Shown: positions 1,027-10,400 of the stretch, in pieces
Position numbering within the stretch: position 1 is the first letter of the stretch
Layout: every line of letters starts with the position of its first letter
The notes under the pieces: generated by a model
The model's database searches: none
What the model saw: the letters and a program-made list of their open reading frames with translations, nothing else
Told to the model about the DNA's origin: nothing
Origin: Acanthamoeba castellanii str. Neff
Taxonomy: Eukaryota > Discosea > Longamoebia > Acanthamoebidae
Assembly: GCF_000313135.1 (NCBI RefSeq)
Contig: NW_004457568.1
Span: 114,444-128,237 of the forward strand
Reading direction: 5' to 3'
DNA length: 13,794 nt
Program-made: the position numbers and the translations under genes

Positions 1027-2519
1027 ATGGCCGCCAAGATCACTCTTCTCTTCATCGCCACCCTCGTCGCCGCAGTGGTGGCCCAGGACCCGACCTCCTA
1101 CATCACCGCCTACCCCGCCCGTTCTGTTGTAGGTGCCGTACCTCATCTCACCACCCTCTTCTCCTTCATCTACACCAACTCCGTTGCAAGCCAGAAAAAA
1201 TAACCTCCTCGTTTGATTTCTGGTCTGGTCTGATGATCAGGGTGCGGAGATTCGCCGTTCAACCTGACCATGCAGGCGTGGCAGGTCGAGCCCTGCACCT
1301 ACGTCATCAAGTACTCCATCTACGGCCGCCCGGGCATTTCCGACTTTGGCTTCAGGTACGCGGCGACCAGGAATTGGGGGGGGGGGCAAAAAGCGAAAGC
1401 GAAGGAAAAGAGCGAAGCCGACGCTAAACCCAACCCAACCAACAACAAAAAACAGTCTTTCTCCCAACGCTGGGCGCACCATCACCGTTTCCGGCTGTTC
1501 CTCCAACTCCTGGTACGCCACGGTCTTTCTTTTTCCTTTACATTTTTCCTCTAAAAGAAGTATGTTCGATGGTCGACCTGCGCAGGTCGTCGTCGGGAGG
1601 CAACGGCAACACCTGTACGACGGACGGTCCCTACGGGGGCTGGACCGCCGACGGCTCGATGGTCAAGATCGACGAAACCAAGGGCTGCGACCAGCAGGCC
1701 ACCTTCTACGTCAAGGCCACCCTCACCACCCTCATCACCACCGGTACGTCATCTTCGCCTTCAACCCCTCAACCGTTGGCCGTGCCAACGCATGTCTTGG
1801 GCTCCTCCTGATCTCGATCTCACTGACCAACACCAACACCAACAACACCAACAACACGAACAACACCAGGGTCGACGCTGGCGTTGAAGGCGGGGAGCTA
1901 CTGCTGGACGTGCGATAATGCGCCCTACGGCTTCGGCCCGGCCACATCGTGCACGTCGCCCTCGCCCACCGCCTCGTTGTCGCCCTCTCGCACCCCGTCG
2001 CCCTCCACCGTGCCCCCTTCGGCCACGCCCTCCATCTCCGCGTCGCCTTCCCGCCCGGCCACGCCCTCCATCTCCGCCTCGCCCTCGTCCGCCGTGTCTC
2101 CCTCCATCTCCGTGTCGCGCACGCCGTCGCCCTCCGTCTCGGCCACGCCCTCCATCTCGGCCACCGCCTCGCCGTCGACCTTCATTTCGCCGCCTTCGCT
2201 CCCGCCGTCGCCCTCCGGCTCGCCGTCGGCCGCGCTCTCGGTGTCGCCGTCGCCGCCGATCCTGTCCCAGTCGGAGGGCGGCGCGTCGAGCGGCGCGATC
2301 GCCGGTGGCGTGGTGGGCGGCATCGCCGGCGTGGGCGCCGCGGGCGCAGTGCTGGCCGGCGCGGGCTACCTGGTCCACCGCATGATGAACAAGCCGCCGG
2401 CCCCGGCCGCCCTCACGTCGGCCTTTGACGGCGTCGCCGACAACGCAGGCGGCGTCAATGCGCTCTTCGTCGACCAGGCCTCCATGCAGCCCAACCCGCT
2501 CTTCGCCGAGGTGCCCTAA
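1027..2519 (+). CDS. Secreted, membrane-anchored Cys-rich/Ser-Pro-rich surface protein (copy A)
   Basis: Five exons join in phase to a 361-residue product: 1027-1132, 1241-1355, 1456-1512, 1586-1743 and 1870-2519. The start sits in aaaaATGGCC. Residues 1-19 (MAAKITLLFIATLVAAVVA) form a classic signal peptide, with likely cleavage before Gln20. Residues 20-173 form an ectodomain with eight cysteines, enough for four disulfides, including a YCWTC motif. I do not recognise the fold. Residues 174-280 are a Ser/Pro-rich stalk built on PSISASPS-like repeats, probably heavily O-glycosylated. Residues 286-313 are a Gly/Ala-rich hydrophobic segment with GxxxG spacing, followed by HR, which I read as a single membrane span. 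A tail of about 48 residues ends NPLFAEVP. The topology suggests a type I surface protein, perhaps in adhesion or the cell coat; its function is unknown. Copy B downstream is its tandem paralogue. Confidence 0.8.
1775..1813 (+). other. Conserved segment inside intron 4 (copy A)
   Basis: Most intron sequence differs between the two copies, yet about 35 bases in intron 4 (cgtgccaacgcatgtcttgg, then gct[t]cctcctgatc) are almost unchanged at 3833-3872 in copy B. It could be a splicing or expression element, or simply a stretch not yet eroded since duplication. Confidence 0.35.
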
Positions 2520-3011
2520 GCTGGCGTGGATGAAAGTGCCTAGGCCTGTTCATTCTCCTGTTGTTGTACAAAGTTTTCAAAAGAAACACTTGGTTTTTGT
2601 CTGTACACAACGTAGAGAAAGTGAGAGAGACCAGTTGTTGTCCAACGAGGAGTGGTCCTCACTCAAACTCCCCTCGTGCTCTTTTTCTTTTGCTGCTTTT
2701 TCGTTGGCATTCTTAGCATTCCACGGCCGCACAGGAGCACAAGCGCGTTGCCCAAGCCGAACGGTCATCCTCTGCGACTCTCTCTCTCTCTCTCAATAAG
2801 CGGCCATTGGCGAGGAGATCAGGGGTTCTGGCGCTTCATGATGGGAGCTGCAATAGTATGCGCGCAGGACAGGGTACTGTCGCCTCGACCCGGAGCTAAA
2901 AGCGTACGGCGCGCCAAGGCAGGTCATTGCATCTCTGCTGACAGAGCTCAGACCTCGACTCACTTCCCACCAGCCCAAGAAGAAGCAGCCCCTTTGGGAC
3001 CCAACGAAAAA
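2520..3011. other. Intergenic region between copies A and B
   Basis: I see no gene in these 492 bases. The left 170 bases presumably hold the copy A 3' UTR; no AATAAA is visible. From about 2704 the sequence is the duplicated 5' flank, with a (CT)n run at 2778-2794 that is absent from copy A. The 88-bp block follows at 2812-2899, then a short leader before the copy B start. Confidence 0.6.
2812..2899 (+). promoter_or_regulatory. 88-bp conserved 5' block, copy B
   Basis: This is the counterpart of 581-668, with three differences in 88 bases (two transitions and one transversion). It lies 112 bp upstream of the copy B start codon, against about 360 bp for copy A. If it is a promoter element, its distance to the start differs between the genes. 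Confidence 0.45.
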
Positions 3012-4786
3012 ATGGCCACCAAGATCACTCTTCTCTTCATCGCCACCCTCGTCGCCGCAGTAGTCGCCCAGGACCCGACCTCCTACATCACCGCCTACCC
3101 CGCCCGTTCCGTTGTAGGTGCCGTTCCTCATCTCCGCCTCTCCCCTCCTTCCTCGACACCACCGCTCTCTTCGTTCTTTTTACGTGCCCTGGAGTAGCGG
3201 ACCAATCAAAAAAGGTGCCCAGTGCTGGGAGAAAAATAACCTCCGCGTTTCGTTTGTGGACTCTGCTACTCGCCAGGATGCGGAGGCTCGCCGTTCAACC
3301 TGACCATGCAGGCGTGGCAGGTCGAGCCCTGCACCTACGTCATCAAGTACTCCATCTACGGCCGCCCGGGGATCTCCGACTTTGGCTTCAGGTACGCGGC
3401 TACCGGTCGGTTTTGTGACAACACAGCACGACCATGAACCATGACCTCAACCCAACAAACAGTCTTCCTCGCAACTCGGCCCGTACCATCACCGTTTCCG
3501 GCTGTTCCTCCAACTCCTGGTACAGTGAAGCTCTTTTGTGCGAAACATGATTTTGTTTAATGGGCTGCTAATTCTGAAGCCCACAAAGGTCGTCGTCGGG
3601 AGGCAGGGGCAACACCTGTACGACGGACGGCCCCTACGGGGGCTGGACCGCCGACGGCTCGATGGTCAAGATCGACGAAACCAAGGGCTGCGATCAGCGG
3701 GCCACCTTCTACGTCAAGGCCAACCTCACCACCCTCATCACTACCGGTACGTAGCCAACCAACCTTTACTTTACATTCTCTTTGATTTCAACGTCATCTT
3801 CGTTCTCGCGTCATCTTCATCAACTCTCAATGGTTGGTCGTGCCAACGCATGTCTTGGGCTTCCTCCTGATCACTTGCCTCGCTGTGTTGCTGTTTGTTG
3901 CGAAACAACACCAGGGTCGACGCTGGCGTTGAAGGCGGCGACCCGCTGCTGGACGTGCGAGAAGGCGCCCTACGGCTTCGGCCCTGCCAAGTCGTGCCCG
4001 TCGCCCTCGAGATCGCCCTCGCATTCGCCTTGCCGCCCGGCCAAGCCCTCCAGCTCTCCGTCGCACTCGCCGTGCCGCCCGGCCAAGCCCTCCAGCTCTC
4101 CGTCTCATTCGCCGTGCCGCCCGACCAAGCCCTCCAGCTCTCCGTCGCACTCGCCGTGCCGCCCGGCTAAGCCCTCCATCTCTCCGTCTCATTCGCCGTG
4201 CCGCCCGGCCAAGCCCTCCAGCTCTCCGTCGCACTCGCCGTGCCGCCCGGCCAAGCCCTCCAGCTCTCCGTCGCACTCGCCGTGCCGCTCGGCTACGCCC
4301 TCCGTCTCCGCCGCTCCCTCCCGCTCGGCCACGCCGTCCATCTCCGTGTCGCGCACGCCCAGCGCCTCGCCCAGCGCTTCATCCGCCGCGTCGCCCTCCA
4401 GTTCGCCACGCCCTCCATCTCCGCCTCGCCCTCGTCCGCCGTGTCGCCCTCCATCTCCGTGTCGCGCACTCCGTCGCCCACCGTCTCGGCCACGCCCTCC
4501 ACCTCGACCACTCCCACTGCCACGCAGTCGCCGACCTCGTCGCCCTCCATCTCCGTGTCGCCGTCCAGCTCGGTCACGCCGTCCATCTCCGTGTCGCGCA
4601 CGCCGACGCCCACCGTCTCGCCGTCGCCCTCCACCTCGGCCACGCCCACCGCCTCGCCCTCGCCCACCGCCTCGCCCTCGGCCGTACCCCCGTCGCCCTC
4701 CGGCTCGCCGATCCTGTCCCGGAGGGCCAATTAGGGCGCAGTTCTTCTTTGTACATAAAAATAATATACAGAATAAAATAATGTAA
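3012..4786 (+). CDS. Surface-protein paralogue (copy B), frameshifted and without membrane anchor
   Basis: Exons 3012-3117, 3277-3391, 3463-3519, 3589-3746 and 3915-4786 join in phase to about 435 residues. The signal peptide (MATKITLLFIATLVAAVVA) and all eight ectodomain cysteines match copy A. The stalk begins with seven 14-residue repeats of the SHSPCRPAKPSSSP type (residues about 181-278), each adding a Cys and basic residues. Near 4400-4407 (agttcgccacg, where one g appears to be missing) the open frame departs from the copy A-like Ser/Pro frame. From about residue 309 the product is Arg/Pro-rich and ends at TAA 4784-4786. The copy A-like frame continues to TAG 4732-4734. In neither frame is there a membrane span, because homology to copy A ends just after ccgatcctgtccc. 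This could be a secreted derivative or a decaying copy; a sequence error at the frameshift is possible. Confidence 0.65.
3833..3872 (+). other. Conserved segment inside intron 4 (copy B)
   Basis: This is the counterpart of 1775-1813 in copy A. It contains cgtgccaacgcatgtcttgg followed by gcttcctcctgatc, with a one-base indel relative to copy A, inside an otherwise divergent intron. Confidence 0.35.
4019..4312 (+). repeat. In-frame 42-bp tandem array, seven units
   Basis: The tgccgc core recurs every 42 bases (4031, 4073, 4115, 4157, 4199, 4241, 4283). Each unit encodes 14 residues of the form SHSPCRPAKPSSSP. Variation is slight: PTK in unit 3, a PSIS end in unit 4, and CRSATPS in the last, which grades into the copy A-type stalk. 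Copy A lacks the Cys-Arg units, so the array expanded after duplication. The period keeps the frame, so units can be gained or lost without disrupting the protein. Confidence 0.9.
4772..4777 (+). terminator. AATAAA poly(A) signal for copy B
   Basis: A canonical AATAAA lies in an AT-rich tract after the TAG at 4732 and just before the TAA at 4784. If it works for copy B, the transcript ends within tens of bases of the PARG start codon, so the two genes are packed very tightly. Confidence 0.5.
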
Positions 4787-4827
4787 AGATAAAAAGATAA
4801 AAGATAAAAAGATAAAAAGATAAAAAG
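4785..4827 (+). repeat. GATAAAA(A) tandem repeat before PARG
   Basis: Five consecutive agataaaa(a) units run directly up to the PARG ATG at 4828. The tract is A-rich in an otherwise GC-rich region. It must form the PARG leader or lie at its transcription start, given the 41-bp gap after the copy B stop at 4786. Confidence 0.75.
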
Positions 4828-7226
4828 ATGGAGGAGACGTTGGGAGGGACGAGGGTGCGGCTGCCGCACTACGGCGAAGAGAACCGTGCGGCCTCACGAA
4901 GCTGGGGCTCGCATGTGGTGAACGTCGTGCAGCGGCGCCTGCCCGACCTGCCCGCCCTTCTCCACGGTGCCCCCTCCTCATAATGCCGTCGTCAGTCAGC
5001 GCGCACGCATGGGTAGCTGACCGCCAGGACCTGGGTCACCGGCGCTGGGGCAGCCCTGGCCGACATCGCTGGGGCGGAGGAGGTGTGCGGCGATGGCCTG
5101 CGCACCTTGCTCACCCCCGCGATGGTGGCCGACGACGACTTGAACGGAAGCGCCGTAGGGGGAGGCTTGCAGAGCCTGCTCTTGGCACGCCGCGCGCGGG
5201 ACTCGACGCCCGCTCTCGCCCCGGGTACACTCTCGAACGCGTCGGCGTTGTGCTCGACACAGTGTACACTGATCGTAGGTGGGTAGAAAAAAGGCCTGAC
5301 ACGACCCTACTACTACGATACGCCCTTGCAGAAGGGGTGGCCCGCTTCTACGGCGAGGTGCTGCCGGCCATGCAGCGACTGGCGCTACGCATCGCCGAGC
5401 TGTTTCCCGACCCACAAGCAACCCACTCGATCCCGCTCATGCTGCCTCAGCACCACACCACCGTCACGCTCACCCAGGTCCGTTGCGCGACGTGTGTGCG
5501 ATGTGTGCGTGTGCGGTGGTGCGTGTGCGTGTGCGTGTGCGTGTGCGTGTGCGTGTCGTGCCCTGATTGACACAGAACATAGGAGGAGTGCGGCAGCTTG
5601 CTGTCCAACTCGTTCTTCGGGACACTGTGGCACCGGCCATCGCTCTACAATCCGGTGCGAAGCAGCTGCTCACTTCGCTTCACGTTCGTTCATCAGCTTC
5701 ATCAGCGTCTCAATTGTCGGTGGCACACACACGCGCGCTCAGGGTGTCGGCTTCCCGCAATTCGATCTGCAAACGCTCGTGGCTTGCGGCGGTGGCCCAG
5801 GCCTCTCCACCCTGCGGTGTCTTCTCCACTACTTTGAGCGATTGGCCCTGAACGGTACAGTCGCGTCTATTCGTTCGTTGTCGGCGACACTGCCGTGTGC
5901 GTGTGCGTGTGCGTGGTGCGTGTGTGTGTGTGTTGTGTGTGTGTTGTCGCGCTGAGAGGTTGGCCCGACAGTGCCCGAGGGCAGTATCACGTTCAGGCGC
6001 CACTTCCTCAGCAGGGCTGAGACGTCCGACTGGGCCACCAGCGACCGACCACTGCGGCGAATCGTGGTGGAGCCCAAGGCCAACCTCGAAGACTCTCCCT
6101 GCCCCTATCTCGTCGACTTTGCCAACGCCTACGTCGGCGGCGGCACGCTCACCGGGGTGCACACCACACACACACCACACACGACACACACCGCACACAC
6201 TGCACACACCACACACACACACACACAGTTGGTTTTAGCACACCACACTTGCTCTTTGCTCACTGTGCTCTCAATGCGGATTTGTTCAGGCGTGCATGCA
6301 AGAAGAGATACTCTTCGCCACCCGACCCGAGTGCTTGGTCTCACTGTACGCGCGGCCGCGCTCGTTCTTCTTCAAACTCCAGTTTGCGCGCTTGATGACC
6401 ACCTCTTCTTGTCGACAGGCTGTTTTGCTCGCGGCTCGAAGACAACGAGGTGCTGTGCATCAAGGGCGCCGAGCGGTACAGCCTGCACTCGGGCTACGGG
6501 CATACCTTCAAGTGGAAGGCCGACCACAGCGACGCCACGCCCAGGTTTCGAGACTCACACCACTGCGCACTTCCCAGTCCAACTGATATATTTATTGAGT
6601 GCAGGGACGACAAAGGGCGGAGGGAGCGCACGCTGGTGGTGATGGACGCCGAGCAGGTCTCGGGTGCCATTCATGACTGGAAGCTGCACGTCGATCGCGA
6701 CCTGCGCAAAGCCTACGCCGGGTTCCATTTCGCTGTCGACGCCGATGAAGGCGAGGAGGCCGCGGGACCGATCGCCACCGGCAACTGGGGCTGCGGAGGT
6801 GCGGGCGTGCGTGCTCAATGCACTCGACCAGCATGATCGCTCACGTGTGCCGCTTTTGAGGGCTGACGTTGCTTCTGTTGCGGCCAACACAGCGTTTGGT
6901 GGCGACAAGTCGTTGAAGGTGATGCAGCAGATGATGGCCGCCTCGCAGGCCGGGCGAGACCTGGTCTACCACGCCTTTGGCACCACCTACCGCGGGCGGC
7001 TGCTGGCCGAGTGGATCGACGAGCTGCAGGGCCTGGTGGCGGCCCGCCAGCTCACAGTTGGTGACTGTCTCCTCCCCAGTAAAGCCAATGTTAGCAGCAT
7101 CTCAATCTCCTGCTACCGACTCACCATTCTCTCATGCCTCTAGGCGAGCTCTACCGCGCCATCATCGAAGCTACGCCAGGCACCAACCTCTTTCAAGTTG
7201 TACACACAGCCTACGCCGGCCAATAG
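4828..7226 (+). CDS. PARG: Poly(ADP-ribose) glycohydrolase (PARG)
   Basis: This enzyme cleaves the ribose-ribose bonds of poly(ADP-ribose) chains made by PARPs, releasing ADP-ribose, usually in the nucleus. Eleven exons join in phase to 483 residues: 4828-4966, 5054-5224, 5332-5477, 5583-5654, 5743-5854, 5972-6156, 6290-6345, 6419-6544, 6605-6798, 6893-7060 and 7144-7226. The family signature GGG-X7-QEE is complete: GGG at residues 269-271 and QEE at 279-281, split by intron 6, with the second Glu as catalytic acid. Other family landmarks are LLSNSFFGTL (helical domain), VDFANAYVGGG, GAERYSLHSGYG (Tyr320 as substrate-clasp tyrosine), ATGNWGCGAFGGD (393-405) and LTVGELY near the end. The length suits a compact, plant-type PARG without the long N-terminal region of animal isoforms. 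The start follows the GATAAAA tract; the first two exons are the least certain. The protein looks intact and active. Confidence 0.93.
5515..5556 (+). repeat. (GTGTGC)n microsatellite in PARG intron 3
   Basis: An imperfect gcgtgt repeat occupies most of intron 3 (5478-5582). Apparent open frames through it are simple alternating residues and are not genes. Confidence 0.85.
5894..5947 (+). repeat. (GTGTGC)n/(GT)n microsatellite in PARG intron 5
   Basis: An imperfect gtgtgc tract grades into pure gt near the middle of intron 5 (5855-5971). Confidence 0.85.
6158..6228 (+). repeat. (CA)n-rich tract in PARG intron 6
   Basis: About 70 bases of imperfect cacacaccacac follow the donor site in intron 6 (6157-6289). 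This intron separates the GGG and QEE halves of the PARG signature. The repeat is on the opposite strand phase to those in introns 3 and 5. Confidence 0.85.
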
Positions 7227-7296
7227 TAGCACCCAGCCGAGGCGAGGTGCAACAGGGCACGCTGGTTCATCGAAGACTCCAGATCTCAAGGTACTT

Positions 7297-7307
7297 GGTT
7301 CGATCCC
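7297..7307 (+). promoter_or_regulatory. Pol III B box (in T arm), upstream of the A box
   Basis: GGTTCGATCCC matches the B-box consensus. Because the gene is permuted, the B box lies about 50 bases before the A box instead of after it, so normal TFIIIC geometry is inverted. Confidence 0.65.
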
Positions 7308-7323
7308 AAGGCCGGGCACCAAA

Positions 7324-7346
7324 TGCGCGCACCATGGTGTTGCGCA
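7324..7346 (+). other. Hairpin in the spacer between the tRNA parts
   Basis: The 28-base spacer (7319-7346) begins with CCA directly after the discriminator base. It then folds as TGCGC (7324-7328) pairing with GCGCA (7342-7346), enclosing CAC-CATG-GTG (7330-7339). The stem ends exactly at the base before the mature 5' end, so it would stack against the acceptor stem and mark both processing sites. Confidence 0.6.
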
Positions 7347-7353
7347 GCCCGGC

Positions 7354-7365
7354 TAGCTCATTCGG
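7354..7365 (+). promoter_or_regulatory. Pol III A box (in D arm)
   Basis: TAGCTCATTCGG fits the A-box consensus except for T at tRNA position 15, where a purine is usual. It is downstream of the B box because of the permutation. Confidence 0.55.
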
Positions 7366-7404
7366 TAGAGCGTGAAATATGTCCAGCAGCCGCAACCACC
7401 TCCC

Positions 7405-7408
7405 TTTT
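7405..7408 (+). terminator. T4 run, likely Pol III terminator
   Basis: This is the first run of four Ts after 7261 and lies about 30 bases past the end of the 5' part. No T4 run occurs inside the permuted unit, so a Pol III transcript would cover leader, both parts, spacer and trailer before stopping here. Confidence 0.6.
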
Positions 7409-7447
7409 GATGTGTTGTTGGTGGAAACGGCAGAAGGAAAATAGGCC

Positions 7448-7477: not shown

Positions 7478-10400
7478 TTAGAGGTAGTAGGAGGTGGGGG
7501 TCTTGCCCAGGGCCACGACGACGCTGAGCTGCTCCTCGGTGAAGGCCTCCTGGTGCAGCTCCCACGCCTCCTGGTGCGTTCGATGGAACTCGGCGAACGA
7601 CTTTTTCATCTGTGTTGAGCGTGGGCGGTGCGTGCGGTGAGTGCGGTGAGTGCGGTGAGCGTGTGCGGTATGTGCATGTGTGCACGATGTGGATCTAGGA
7701 GGAAGGGGCTGCGATACCGCATCTTTGACAGACGAGTGGGCGTCGTCCTCGTAGGGGGCGAGGCTCACGAGAAGCGGCGGCAGCCACGCGGGCACCGTGT
7801 AGGTCACGCTCTGCACGATGGCCGCGAGGCCCAAGGCGGCGCCGTGCCTCAGCCTCTCCTCGGGCGCTGCACAACAACAATGTGAGCGATTTCTCTCCAT
7901 AGTGGCTACGACGAAAAGAAAACGAAGAGGCGGCGCGGCACACCATTCTTGAGGTCGCGCCTGCGGAGGGGCTGGCCCAGCGTGGCCAGGAAGCGTTGGG
8001 CGAGGGAGGTCACTTGCGCATCCTCCTCGCCGTGCAGAAGAGACGACAACGAAACGCTGGCCAGCTCACGCACCTGAGTCGACACGCTCACAGTGTTACT
8101 CATTCGACACCACCCCGACGCACACGAGACGCACGCGCCGACAAGGTTCAAGGTGCCTACCTCGACCCGAGCGTCGGCCAGCAGAGAGATGACGAGCTCC
8201 CGCACCTGCCGCCGTTCTTCCTCGTTGAGCAAGAAGCGGTGGTTGAACAGGAAGATCCTGTGTGGGAGAGTCGACCGAGGCGAGTGAGCCGGGTCCACGC
8301 ACACAGGCAGAGCAGAAGATGTGTAGAGAACGGAGGGAGCGGTGAAGGGGCCGACGTACTGAAGGAAGGGCAGCATGGCCGCGCGGGTGTGCCACAGGGT
8401 GTCGGGCTTGGGCAGCGCCAGGAGGTGCTCCACGAAGGAGGAGCGCGGGGCCTGTTCGGGCAGGATCATCTGCGCCGCCAACGCCGCGCACTGCTTCGCC
8501 ACGTTCACCGTGTCGCGGTCCTCGTCGCCGAGAGACGCGAACAGGAGCCGCAGGAAGTGGTGGACGTAGGGCGCGATGGCGCCCGACGCCGACGTCTTGG
8601 TGGCGTGCCACAGCGTCAGCAGCAGCGCCTCGCGGGCGTGCGACGTGTCCTCGGCGGGGGTCGACCGGACCTGGCCCTCCTCGTCCATGGCGTCGCCGTC
8701 ATCCCTCTTCGGCGGCGAGACGTCGGCGTCGACGTCGGCGGTCGTCTTCATCTTGTACACGCGGGCCGGGATCGCCGCGAAGAAGGCGGAGATGGCGTCG
8801 TCGCTGCCCCCGCGGGCCGCGCCAGCAACAGCCGGGTTGTGCCACAGATTGCGGAAGACGAGGACCAGCAGGTACGACAGCTCGCTCCGCACCTGCTTGA
8901 ACGGCGACGAGATGCGCGACGCAAGCAGGCCCAAGACCTGCCGGTTGTAGTCTGCAGCTCTCCACTATTTTTGTTGTGTTGTGTTGATTGTGTTTGGTTT
9001 GCAATTGAACCGTAAAATCAAGAGACTGGAGACGGGTGAGGGCGGGTGGCGACGTACGGTGGTTTCGGCCAGGAAAGGCTGCACGAACTGCAGCACCTTG
9101 GCGTCGCGGAGGGAGTCGCCCTCTTTCTTGGTGTCGGCCGTGAGCGTCTGCAGCTGTCGAACGAGGAGGTCGCCCAGCGGCACCACACGGCGCACGTCCA
9201 AGTTGTAGACGCCGAACCTGCGCCACCGAGCCCATTCGCAATTCGAGGCGATCAGCACTAGGCTTGGGCGGAAGCTGCTGATACAGAGATGGTGGCTGTT
9301 GGTGTCGTACCTGATGGCGATGAACCAGTTGCGCACGCAGTCGGTGGGCGCCTGGGCAATGATTCTCTCCAGGAACGGGATCCAGTAATTCCACAGCCTC
9401 TCGGCATAGTCGTAGCCTACATCACACGAAGAAGAACGAAGAAGAAGAAGAATGAAGAGCGGGGTCGTGAGTGTGAGTCTGCAGTGGAGGGTGCATGTCG
9501 TTTGCAACAGTCGGCCTAGAGTGGAGTACCGCCGTATTTGAGGCAGCGCATGGCGCCGGACATGATCTCGGCAGCGAGTGCGTGGCTGCGCTCCTGGTCG
9601 CCGGCGTGGACCCGGCCCGAGGCGTCGGTGCCCTCCTCGTTCCGCAGGAAGGCGTCGAGGAAGGGACGCAGGTGGGCATCGAACAGGTTCGTCGCAAGCC
9701 GGTTGTTGCCCCGAGCGAGAGACAGCTGGAAGAGGCCCTTGAACAGCTGGGCATTTTCAACCACGAACGAGTTGGGGCTGCTCGACGGCACCTGGACAGT
9801 AGCCATGGGTGGCACCGAGCGAGAAAAAGGTCTGCGTGAGCCAACGCGGGGCAAAGCCCGTGTGTGAGCGTGGTCGCACCTTGTTGGCGACATAAGGCCA
9901 GTGCTTGTTTTGCTTGAGCAGTTCGCGAAGGACTTCGTTGGCCGCCTGGGCCACCAGCGACTTGCCCATGTTGCCCAGTCTTCCGCTCAGAGCAGACCTT
10001 GAGAGCAGAGCGCAGGTACCACGTGTGAGTGAGAAAAAAATAATAAATAACACTAATAACGTGGTCCACTGGATGTTGTACCGGCCGAGCGCTGAGCCCA
10101 GAATGGAGGAGAGCTGCTTGACCATGTCATGGGAATGATCCTGCGACTTGCCCTCGGCTTCATCGGCCCGGACGTGGTGGTCCTGGGCGAGGTAGTGCAG
10201 GAACTGCTGCCTCATGAGCGGGTCGTCCAAGAACCCCGCCAGCTCATCGGCTACGTGCTGGATGGCCTCGTCTGTAAACGGCCGCGACATCGCGTCAGTC
10301 GCTCTCAGGGTTTCACTGTCGGGCTCTGTGCAACACTGCTACGTACCGGACGCAGCCGAAGCAGAGCGTTGTGAAGGTCTGACGTCTCCGGTGAAAACAT

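Follow-up and report, generated by a model that had tools for sequence, protein, structure and literature searches.

A circularly permuted tRNA-Trp(CCA)-shaped unit in Acanthamoeba castellanii and a family of related permuted loci

Introduction

Permuted tRNA genes are described, in the literature searched, from algae, a nucleomorph, and an archaeon, and no report of a permuted tRNA in an amoeba was found in that literature. In these genes (Cyanidioschyzon merolae, prasinophytes, the Bigelowiella nucleomorph, and Thermofilum pendens) the 3' part comes first, both parts lie on one strand, the acceptor spacer is short, and a complete cloverleaf is obtained once the parts are joined. A bulge-helix-bulge marks the junction of the known permuted pre-tRNAs, whose joints are given as 20/21, 37/38, 50/51, 59/60, and 15/16 (PMC3978253). 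The permuted two-piece tmRNA (Rfam RF04321) likewise has its acceptor halves in permuted order, separated by a loop. Vault RNA, an RNA polymerase III product with closed ends that is bound by TEP1, has a TTACTTCG stretch after its A-box. In the bacterial Y RNA YrlA, the RNA ends form a basal stem on which sits a tRNA-like domain comprising D-, T-, and acceptor arms (PMC8394870), and this domain has been suggested to compete for an anticodon nuclease (PMC7790460).

Here we analyse a window of 13,794 nucleotides of the A. castellanii genome (positions 114444-128237 of contig C87), which contains a permuted unit resembling the known permuted genes in order, strand, spacer, and joined cloverleaf. 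This unit and its relatives differ from those genes in their amoebozoan host, in the 29/30 junction, in the lack of a full bulge-helix-bulge at most junctions tested, and in a pairing leader and trailer common to loci of different anticodons; CCA is encoded at three of the loci, and they are redundant with ordinary genes.

Results

The Permuted Unit in the Window

When positions 7275-7318 of the window are joined tail to head with positions 7347-7375, located 28 bases downstream on the same (plus) strand, a complete tRNA-Trp(CCA) cloverleaf results, in which a scripted count found 21 of 21 stem pairs to be Watson-Crick. The permuted tRNA-Trp(CCA)-shaped unit claimed for an amoeba in the preliminary description was thereby borne out. 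The acceptor stem (GCCCGGC/GCCGGGC) is paired at 7/7 positions, the D-stem at 4/4, the T-stem (CTTGG/CCAAG) at 5/5, and the anticodon stem, formed across the junction by TGA|GA with TCTCA, at 5/5. The upstream part (7275-7318) represents tRNA positions 30-73 and includes the anticodon loop CTCCAGA (7277-7283, with the anticodon CCA at 7279-7281), the T-arm CTTGG TTCGATC CCAAG (7294-7310), inside which lies the B-box-like GTTCGATCC, and the discriminator A7318. The downstream part (7347-7375) represents positions 1-29, with the acceptor strand at 7347-7353, the D-arm at 7356-7371, and the start of the anticodon stem at 7373-7375. The junction falls between tRNA positions 29 and 30, 28/29 being equally possible because A7274 and A7375 are the same base. 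Read by eye, the joined sequence has U8, G18G19, U33, and U54U55C56, and positions 15:48 are T:A, departing from the R15:Y48 consensus.

The acceptor stem is closed by the spacer (7319-7346), consisting of CCA (7319-7321) followed by a hairpin (spacer fold -10.9 kcal/mol). The whole conserved unit, the presumed transcript, spans 7241-7408 on the plus strand: in BLAST comparisons, the surroundings (3.2 kb) of the window copy and of its nearest copy matched only at window positions 7241-7414. It begins with a leader (7241-7274) terminating in TTCATCGAA and ends with a trailer (7376-7408) whose pattern is common to the four class 1 loci described below. In the consensus fold of these four units, GAGGTG (7244-7249), GGC (7256-7258), and GCTGG (7261-7265) of the leader pair with CACCTC (7397-7402), GCC (7389-7391), and CCAGC (7383-7387) of the trailer, which closes with TTTT (7405-7408).

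ARAGORN called no tRNA in the window, that is, no tRNA gene in 5'-to-3' order, in agreement with the earlier expectation that standard finders miss this gene. The upstream neighbour named before, PARG, was also recovered: its reading frame matches PF05028 (Pfam) and its stop codon lies at 7224-7226. Downstream, the next minus-strand reading frame ends at 7478; three frames of the convergent gene previously named PSME4 were scanned against Pfam, and the sole match was a sub-threshold one to HEAT, in one frame.

A Family of Nine Loci in Three Scaffold Classes

The genome was searched by family, DNA, and pattern (the YrlA-model search scored 46 of 1931 candidates), and it contains at least nine permuted loci, belonging to three scaffold classes and carrying nine different anticodon triplets; further ones may exist. 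The family was assembled stepwise. With the window unit as DNA query, a 94% copy was recovered 24 kb away, on the other strand, together with a distant copy on contig C124; a trailer search gave a fourth locus; the Rfam YrlA model gave the C124 locus again and four more; and a later DNA query with two of the YrlA-found loci gave the ninth. Isotype names of permuted loci are used here on the basis of their anticodons only.

Class 1 comprises the window Trp unit (7241-7408, plus strand), its nearest copy, Met (C87:146035-146203, minus strand, loop CTCATAA), Tyr (C124:1750752-1750903), and a locus with the loop CATTTAA, referred to as Lys1, on C87 (trailer at 161497). The two class 2 loci are Lys(CTT) (C124:211189-211341) and a relative with the loop CATACAA (C93:489292-489444, minus strand) that is degraded. 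Class 3 consists of Leu(TAG) (C108:240016-240246), Ser(AGA) (C124:578291-578503), and Ser(GCT) (C124:92726-92951). The copies are clustered, with three on C87 within 40 kb and four on C124. The junction is 29/30 in class 1 and lies in the variable arm in class 3. T33 is present in seven of the nine anticodon loops and A33 in two. Locus L092 is degraded, with 5/7 acceptor pairs and the T-loop ATTGAAA. In the class 3 locus with the Leu(TAG) anticodon (L084), ARAGORN called a contiguous tRNA-Ser(cga); this call was rejected, as it used the leader as 5' part and left the acceptor poorly paired. The two class 3 loci with serine anticodons (L090, 1496-1729; L091, 1496-1736) have G3:U70, A73, and a body nearly common with that of the Leu(TAG) locus.

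Between the window unit and its Met copy, 13 of 168 positions differ, distributed as 0/34 in the leader, 0/66 in the tRNA body, 3/7 in the anticodon loop, 8/28 in the spacer, and 2/33 in the trailer; the three loop changes (CTCCAGA to CTCATAA) turn the loop into that of tRNA-Met. The spacers of three of the nine loci form hairpins (Trp, -10.9; Met, -11.8; CATTTAA locus, -13.2 kcal/mol), and no hairpin fold was obtained for the six shorter ones; the class 3 acceptor loops have only 5-7 bases. When surroundings of about 3 kb were compared by BLAST, long similarity within each of the three classes was confined to the unit, the aligned length being 175 bases for window/Met, 243 for Leu/Ser(AGA), 247 for Ser/Ser, and 162 for the class 2 pair. 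The window aligns with the Tyr locus over 58 unit bases and with the CATTTAA locus of C87 over 28, and other matches of 19-55 bases between the surroundings of class members lie elsewhere in these stretches. Exact matches to the scaffold motifs were found neither in the viral contigs nor in the bacterial and archaeal genomes searched.

Conservation of the Permuted Structure

To build a covariance model (R2), 15 of the genome's ordinary tRNAs were opened at the anticodon stem and rotated; none of the permuted loci was included, and an earlier model that had included four of them was set aside as evidence. R2 was run on the window and 61 of the 102 collected loci (199,297 bases), the remaining 41 being largely overlapping stretches or further copies. 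The nine permuted loci took ranks 1-9, with 57.3-37.4 bits (window, 55.9 bits, E 5.3e-16), and the tenth match, the best outside them, was an ordinary tRNA locus at 30.4 bits.

In a model-fitted alignment of the nine cores, 97.0% of cells pair, against a shuffled mean of 65.3%; 15 of 19 pairs are changed on both sides in some locus, including all seven acceptor pairs, which have zero unpaired cells, and 0/500 shuffles reach any of the five pairing measures. This alignment leans to structure, and the loci may have inherited their differences from distinct tRNAs. A stronger point is provided by class 1, whose members have leader and trailer in common and yet show three different acceptor sequences, each paired at 7/7 positions across the spacer. 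In class 3, both partners are altered in three pairs of the leader-trailer helix. When the entire named structure of this class is considered, the number of such pairs is reached by 14/500 shuffles, RNAalifold reporting 6 of 67.

Folding was less complete. The minimum-energy fold of the window unit alone contains the acceptor, the D-arm, the spacer hairpin, and the leader-trailer helices, without the T-arm and the anticodon arm, and its stability is modest (z = -2.14; 4/200 shuffles fold equally well). The class 1 consensus fold likewise did not recover the T-arm or anticodon arm, its covariation term being +1, and the underlying alignment misplaced the Tyr spacer. Taken together, we regard the permuted structure and the family as near certain.

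Ordinary tRNA Genes of the Same Isotypes

Ordinary counterparts were searched for the Trp, Met, Tyr, and Lys isotypes. The 3' half of an ordinary tRNA-Trp, CTCCAGATCAGAAGGTTGCGTGTTCAAGTC, occurs at nine places in the genome, all nine inside whole-tRNA matches above the Rfam cut-off, and ARAGORN identified the three that were fetched as tRNA-Trp(CCA). Given these nine genes, the unit is not the only source of tRNA-Trp, and the suggestion that it might be an important one finds no support. Two other tRNAs were called Trp(CCA): a lone second type on C28 (L035, 1488-1565, minus strand), with the loop CTCCAAA and a poorly paired acceptor (ARAGORN), which looks organellar or bacterial in style, and one on C78 (L059, 1470-1542), whose body is unlike those of the nine ordinary ones.

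Seven ordinary elongator-type tRNA-Met genes were found, and ordinary Lys(CTT) and Lys(TTT) genes are present. For tRNA-Tyr, two stricter patterns gave nothing convincing (four of the seven matches to the second were fetched, one of them lying beside an ordinary tRNA-Pro-like sequence). With a looser pattern, which gave 136 matches against 167 for its reversed control, one tRNA-Tyr 5' exon was found at at least eight places among the matches listed. Two such places were fetched; ARAGORN called tRNA-Tyr at one of them, with an intron of 24 bases at 37/38, and tRNA-Ile(gat) at the other, whose sequence is nearly identical. The idea of the permuted Tyr locus as sole source of tRNA-Tyr was rejected, given this exon at at least eight places, one of them confirmed as a gene.

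Junctions, Promoter Elements, and Encoded CCA

The 29/30 junction of the window is absent from the junctions tabulated in a 2014 review (PMC3978253). A first search for a bulge-helix-bulge, run without a control, examined 5832 placements per junction at six junctions and found none; for the strict 3-4-3 form at the precise cut position the control gives 0 as well, which makes it uninformative. A relaxed search covered five class 1 and class 2 junctions. At four of them (Trp, Met, Tyr, and the CATTTAA locus), 0/24,300 placements were a full motif, while eight full motifs were found at Lys(CTT) and 37 at the intron of an ordinary tRNA-Tyr, used as control. In the window, 36 partial forms were found, with the central helix and the exon-side helix only.

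An A-box-like stretch is present at leader position 12-14 in all five class 2 and class 3 loci, no RNA polymerase III A-box was found in the class 1 leaders, and the T-arm is intact, or nearly so, in all nine loci. The A-box-like stretches of classes 2 and 3 fit tandem duplication. CCA directly follows the discriminator in three of the nine permuted loci (Trp, Met, and Lys(CTT)), a fourth reading CGCCA, as compared with 1/45 distinct ordinary tRNA ends, in a list that contains many nearly identical genes and a few misread entries. Since Trp and Met share descent, these represent at most two or three independent cases. The encoded CCA would fit an origin from a circularised, CCA-tailed tRNA, which resembles scenarios in a review (PMC3978253, section 10).

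YrlA-Like Layout and TROVE-Domain Proteins

The permuted units resemble YrlA in having a predicted basal stem made of their own ends, followed by a T-arm, an acceptor-like stem closed by a loop, and a D-arm. They differ from it in the full anticodon arm (a loop and a five-pair stem in the window unit), which the Rfam consensus lacks, in being encoded in a eukaryotic genome, and in the type of TROVE protein found there. The Rfam YrlA model (RF02553) matched the window at a sub-threshold 24.4 bits and the Tyr locus, the best, over the whole model length at 44.0 bits (E 2.4e-7). None of the YrlA matches reached the gathering score of 69, and L091 gave no match at E up to 1. In 14 control genomes, sub-threshold matches (E up to 10) were obtained in 13, and scores of twenty-odd bits therefore carry little weight.

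TROVE domains were found at two places in the genome (C143:62153-63394 and C114:420847-422237). One of them scores 321.9 bits, its best hits being named TROVE or telomerase protein component 1, and PDB matches by sequence were marginal. The C143 gene has an open stretch of 639 residues in the fetched piece and a MIDAS-like DVSGSM. By the names of their relatives, these proteins look TEP1-like rather than Ro60-like. A TROVE-domain protein read from this genome shows identity over 92% of the query to one named from A. castellanii strain Neff, which places the window in that strain or a very close one.

Two other RNA families were compared. The permuted tmRNA model RF04321 gave no match in the window at E up to 5, and elsewhere it matched class 3 loci only, with 27.0 bits at best (L091) against a gathering score of 47; the loci differ from this RNA in their complete D-arm. 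As for vault RNA, class 2 leaders carry TACTTC just after the A-box-like stretch, in likeness to the vault RNA motif. No Rfam vault match was obtained in the window at E up to 5 or at the other loci at E up to 1, and the Acanthamoeba units differ in having a complete, permuted tRNA body.

Discussion

We favour the interpretation of the window unit as a structured noncoding mimic of tRNA over that of a tRNA precursor, and we give this interpretation an even chance of being right. RNA polymerase III would make an RNA from the unit and stop at the T-run; this RNA would stay in one piece and fold into a tRNA-shaped body, with the spacer closing the acceptor end, and its own 5' and 3' ends would form a long basal stem projecting, in classes 1 and 2, from the anticodon arm and, in class 3, from the variable arm. 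This would be the layout of YrlA with a readable anticodon added, the basal stem perhaps being held by a TROVE-domain protein, and such a mimic would engage tRNA-handling proteins without decoding codons. It is supported because the unit boundaries are kept in all three classes, because the class 1 junction is at 29/30 and a full bulge-helix-bulge is missing at four of five junctions tested, and because ordinary genes with the same anticodons exist (Trp, Met, Tyr, and Lys). Further support comes from the whole-length YrlA match at the Tyr locus, from the two TROVE-domain places, and from the three pairs changed on both sides in the class 3 leader-trailer helix. Against it, the canonical anticodon loops of seven of the nine loci need a special reason, whereas a decoding tRNA explains them directly; the YrlA matches are all sub-threshold and also occur in 13/14 controls, and the TROVE proteins appear to be closer to TEP1 than to Ro60; and in class 1 the predicted consensus fold lacks the T-arm and the anticodon arm, and the leaders have no A-box.

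The loci may instead be true circularly permuted tRNA genes, the ends being cut and ligated into a circle, RNase P and tRNase Z opening the acceptor, and the product being a decoding tRNA redundant with the ordinary genes; we consider this less likely than a mimic. The canonical anticodon loops speak most for a precursor and the junction most against it. The cloverleaves are complete, and each of the seven T33 loops is, up to and including base 37, the one that usually accompanies its anticodon in eukaryotes. Substitutions between near-identical copies exchange one canonical loop for another. The permuted and the ordinary Lys(CTT) of this genome both have T as base 73, and C1:G72 and A73, as expected of a eukaryotic tRNA-Tyr, are present in the permuted Tyr locus. 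However, the junction in the window unit lacks the full bulge-helix-bulge, a defining feature of permuted genes, which makes this mode of action less likely, and the motif is equally missing at three other junctions tested. Also against it are the ordinary genes for all isotypes checked, T15:A48 of the window in place of R15:Y48, and the encoded CCA there, which would be expected to hinder tRNase Z. The two loci with serine anticodons carry A73 and G3:U70, a combination that is poor for serine and favours alanine identity. The 29/30 junction is also outside those of the review table (PMC3978253). An RNA in two pieces, a tRNA or tRNA-like RNA, seems improbable: RNase P and tRNase Z would cut the acceptor loop, the junction would never be ligated, and the leader-trailer helix would hold the pieces together, as in two-piece tmRNA. 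The permuted order, the long leader-trailer helices, the splicing motif missing at most junctions tested, and the short acceptor loops of class 3 agree with this, but the permuted tmRNA family matches weakly, as described above, and the ribosome would probably not accommodate a long arm at 29/30.

Equally improbable, in our judgement, is a relic, in which tandem tRNA genes that lost their outer halves were spread by duplication without function. The clustering of the copies and the degraded state of L092 would agree with it, as would the A-box-like stretch in all five class 2 and class 3 leaders, such as a decayed upstream 5' half would leave. The ordinary tRNA-Trp genes differ in sequence from the joined parts. 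A simple relic of two truncated neighbouring genes, considered in the preliminary description, is not supported. Family members remain paired in the permuted register (97.0% of cells; shuffled mean, 65.3%), and this speaks against both chance and such a relic. The varied and fully paired class 1 acceptors argue against a relic as well, and no change separates the nearest copies at 100 positions of leader and body, while their flanks cannot be aligned.

A wider and rather unlikely extension of the noncoding mimic proposed above may be considered. The loci could represent a eukaryotic class of closed, anticodon-bearing tRNA mimics, of YrlA type and held by their basal stem on a TEP1-like TROVE protein, each member with a different anticodon and serving as decoy or sensor for proteins that read anticodons off the ribosome (such as synthetases, modification enzymes, or anticodon nucleases). 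Such a class would connect permuted tRNA genes with the Y RNAs of bacteria, and its encoded CCA would then be a trace of an origin from a reverse-transcribed, circularised, CCA-tailed tRNA. The competition for an anticodon nuclease suggested for YrlA would make an anticodon-bearing version of interest, a connection that is our own.

The nine loci would either extend permuted tRNA genes to another branch of the eukaryotes, where processing takes a novel route, or represent a eukaryotic counterpart of the bacterial Y RNAs, and tRNA mimics and permuted tRNA genes predict different RNAs. Since standard finders miss permuted loci, other genomes may hold more of them, and rotated-tRNA models are a direct way to look for them.

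Two minor observations concern the sequences around the permuted loci. The first third of the window (1761-4900) contains long, strongly repetitive, Ser/Pro-rich reading frames on both strands, and the permuted Lys(CTT) locus is preceded, at a distance of about 1.1 kb, by a 5S rRNA match (56.9 bits; L085, 257-389).
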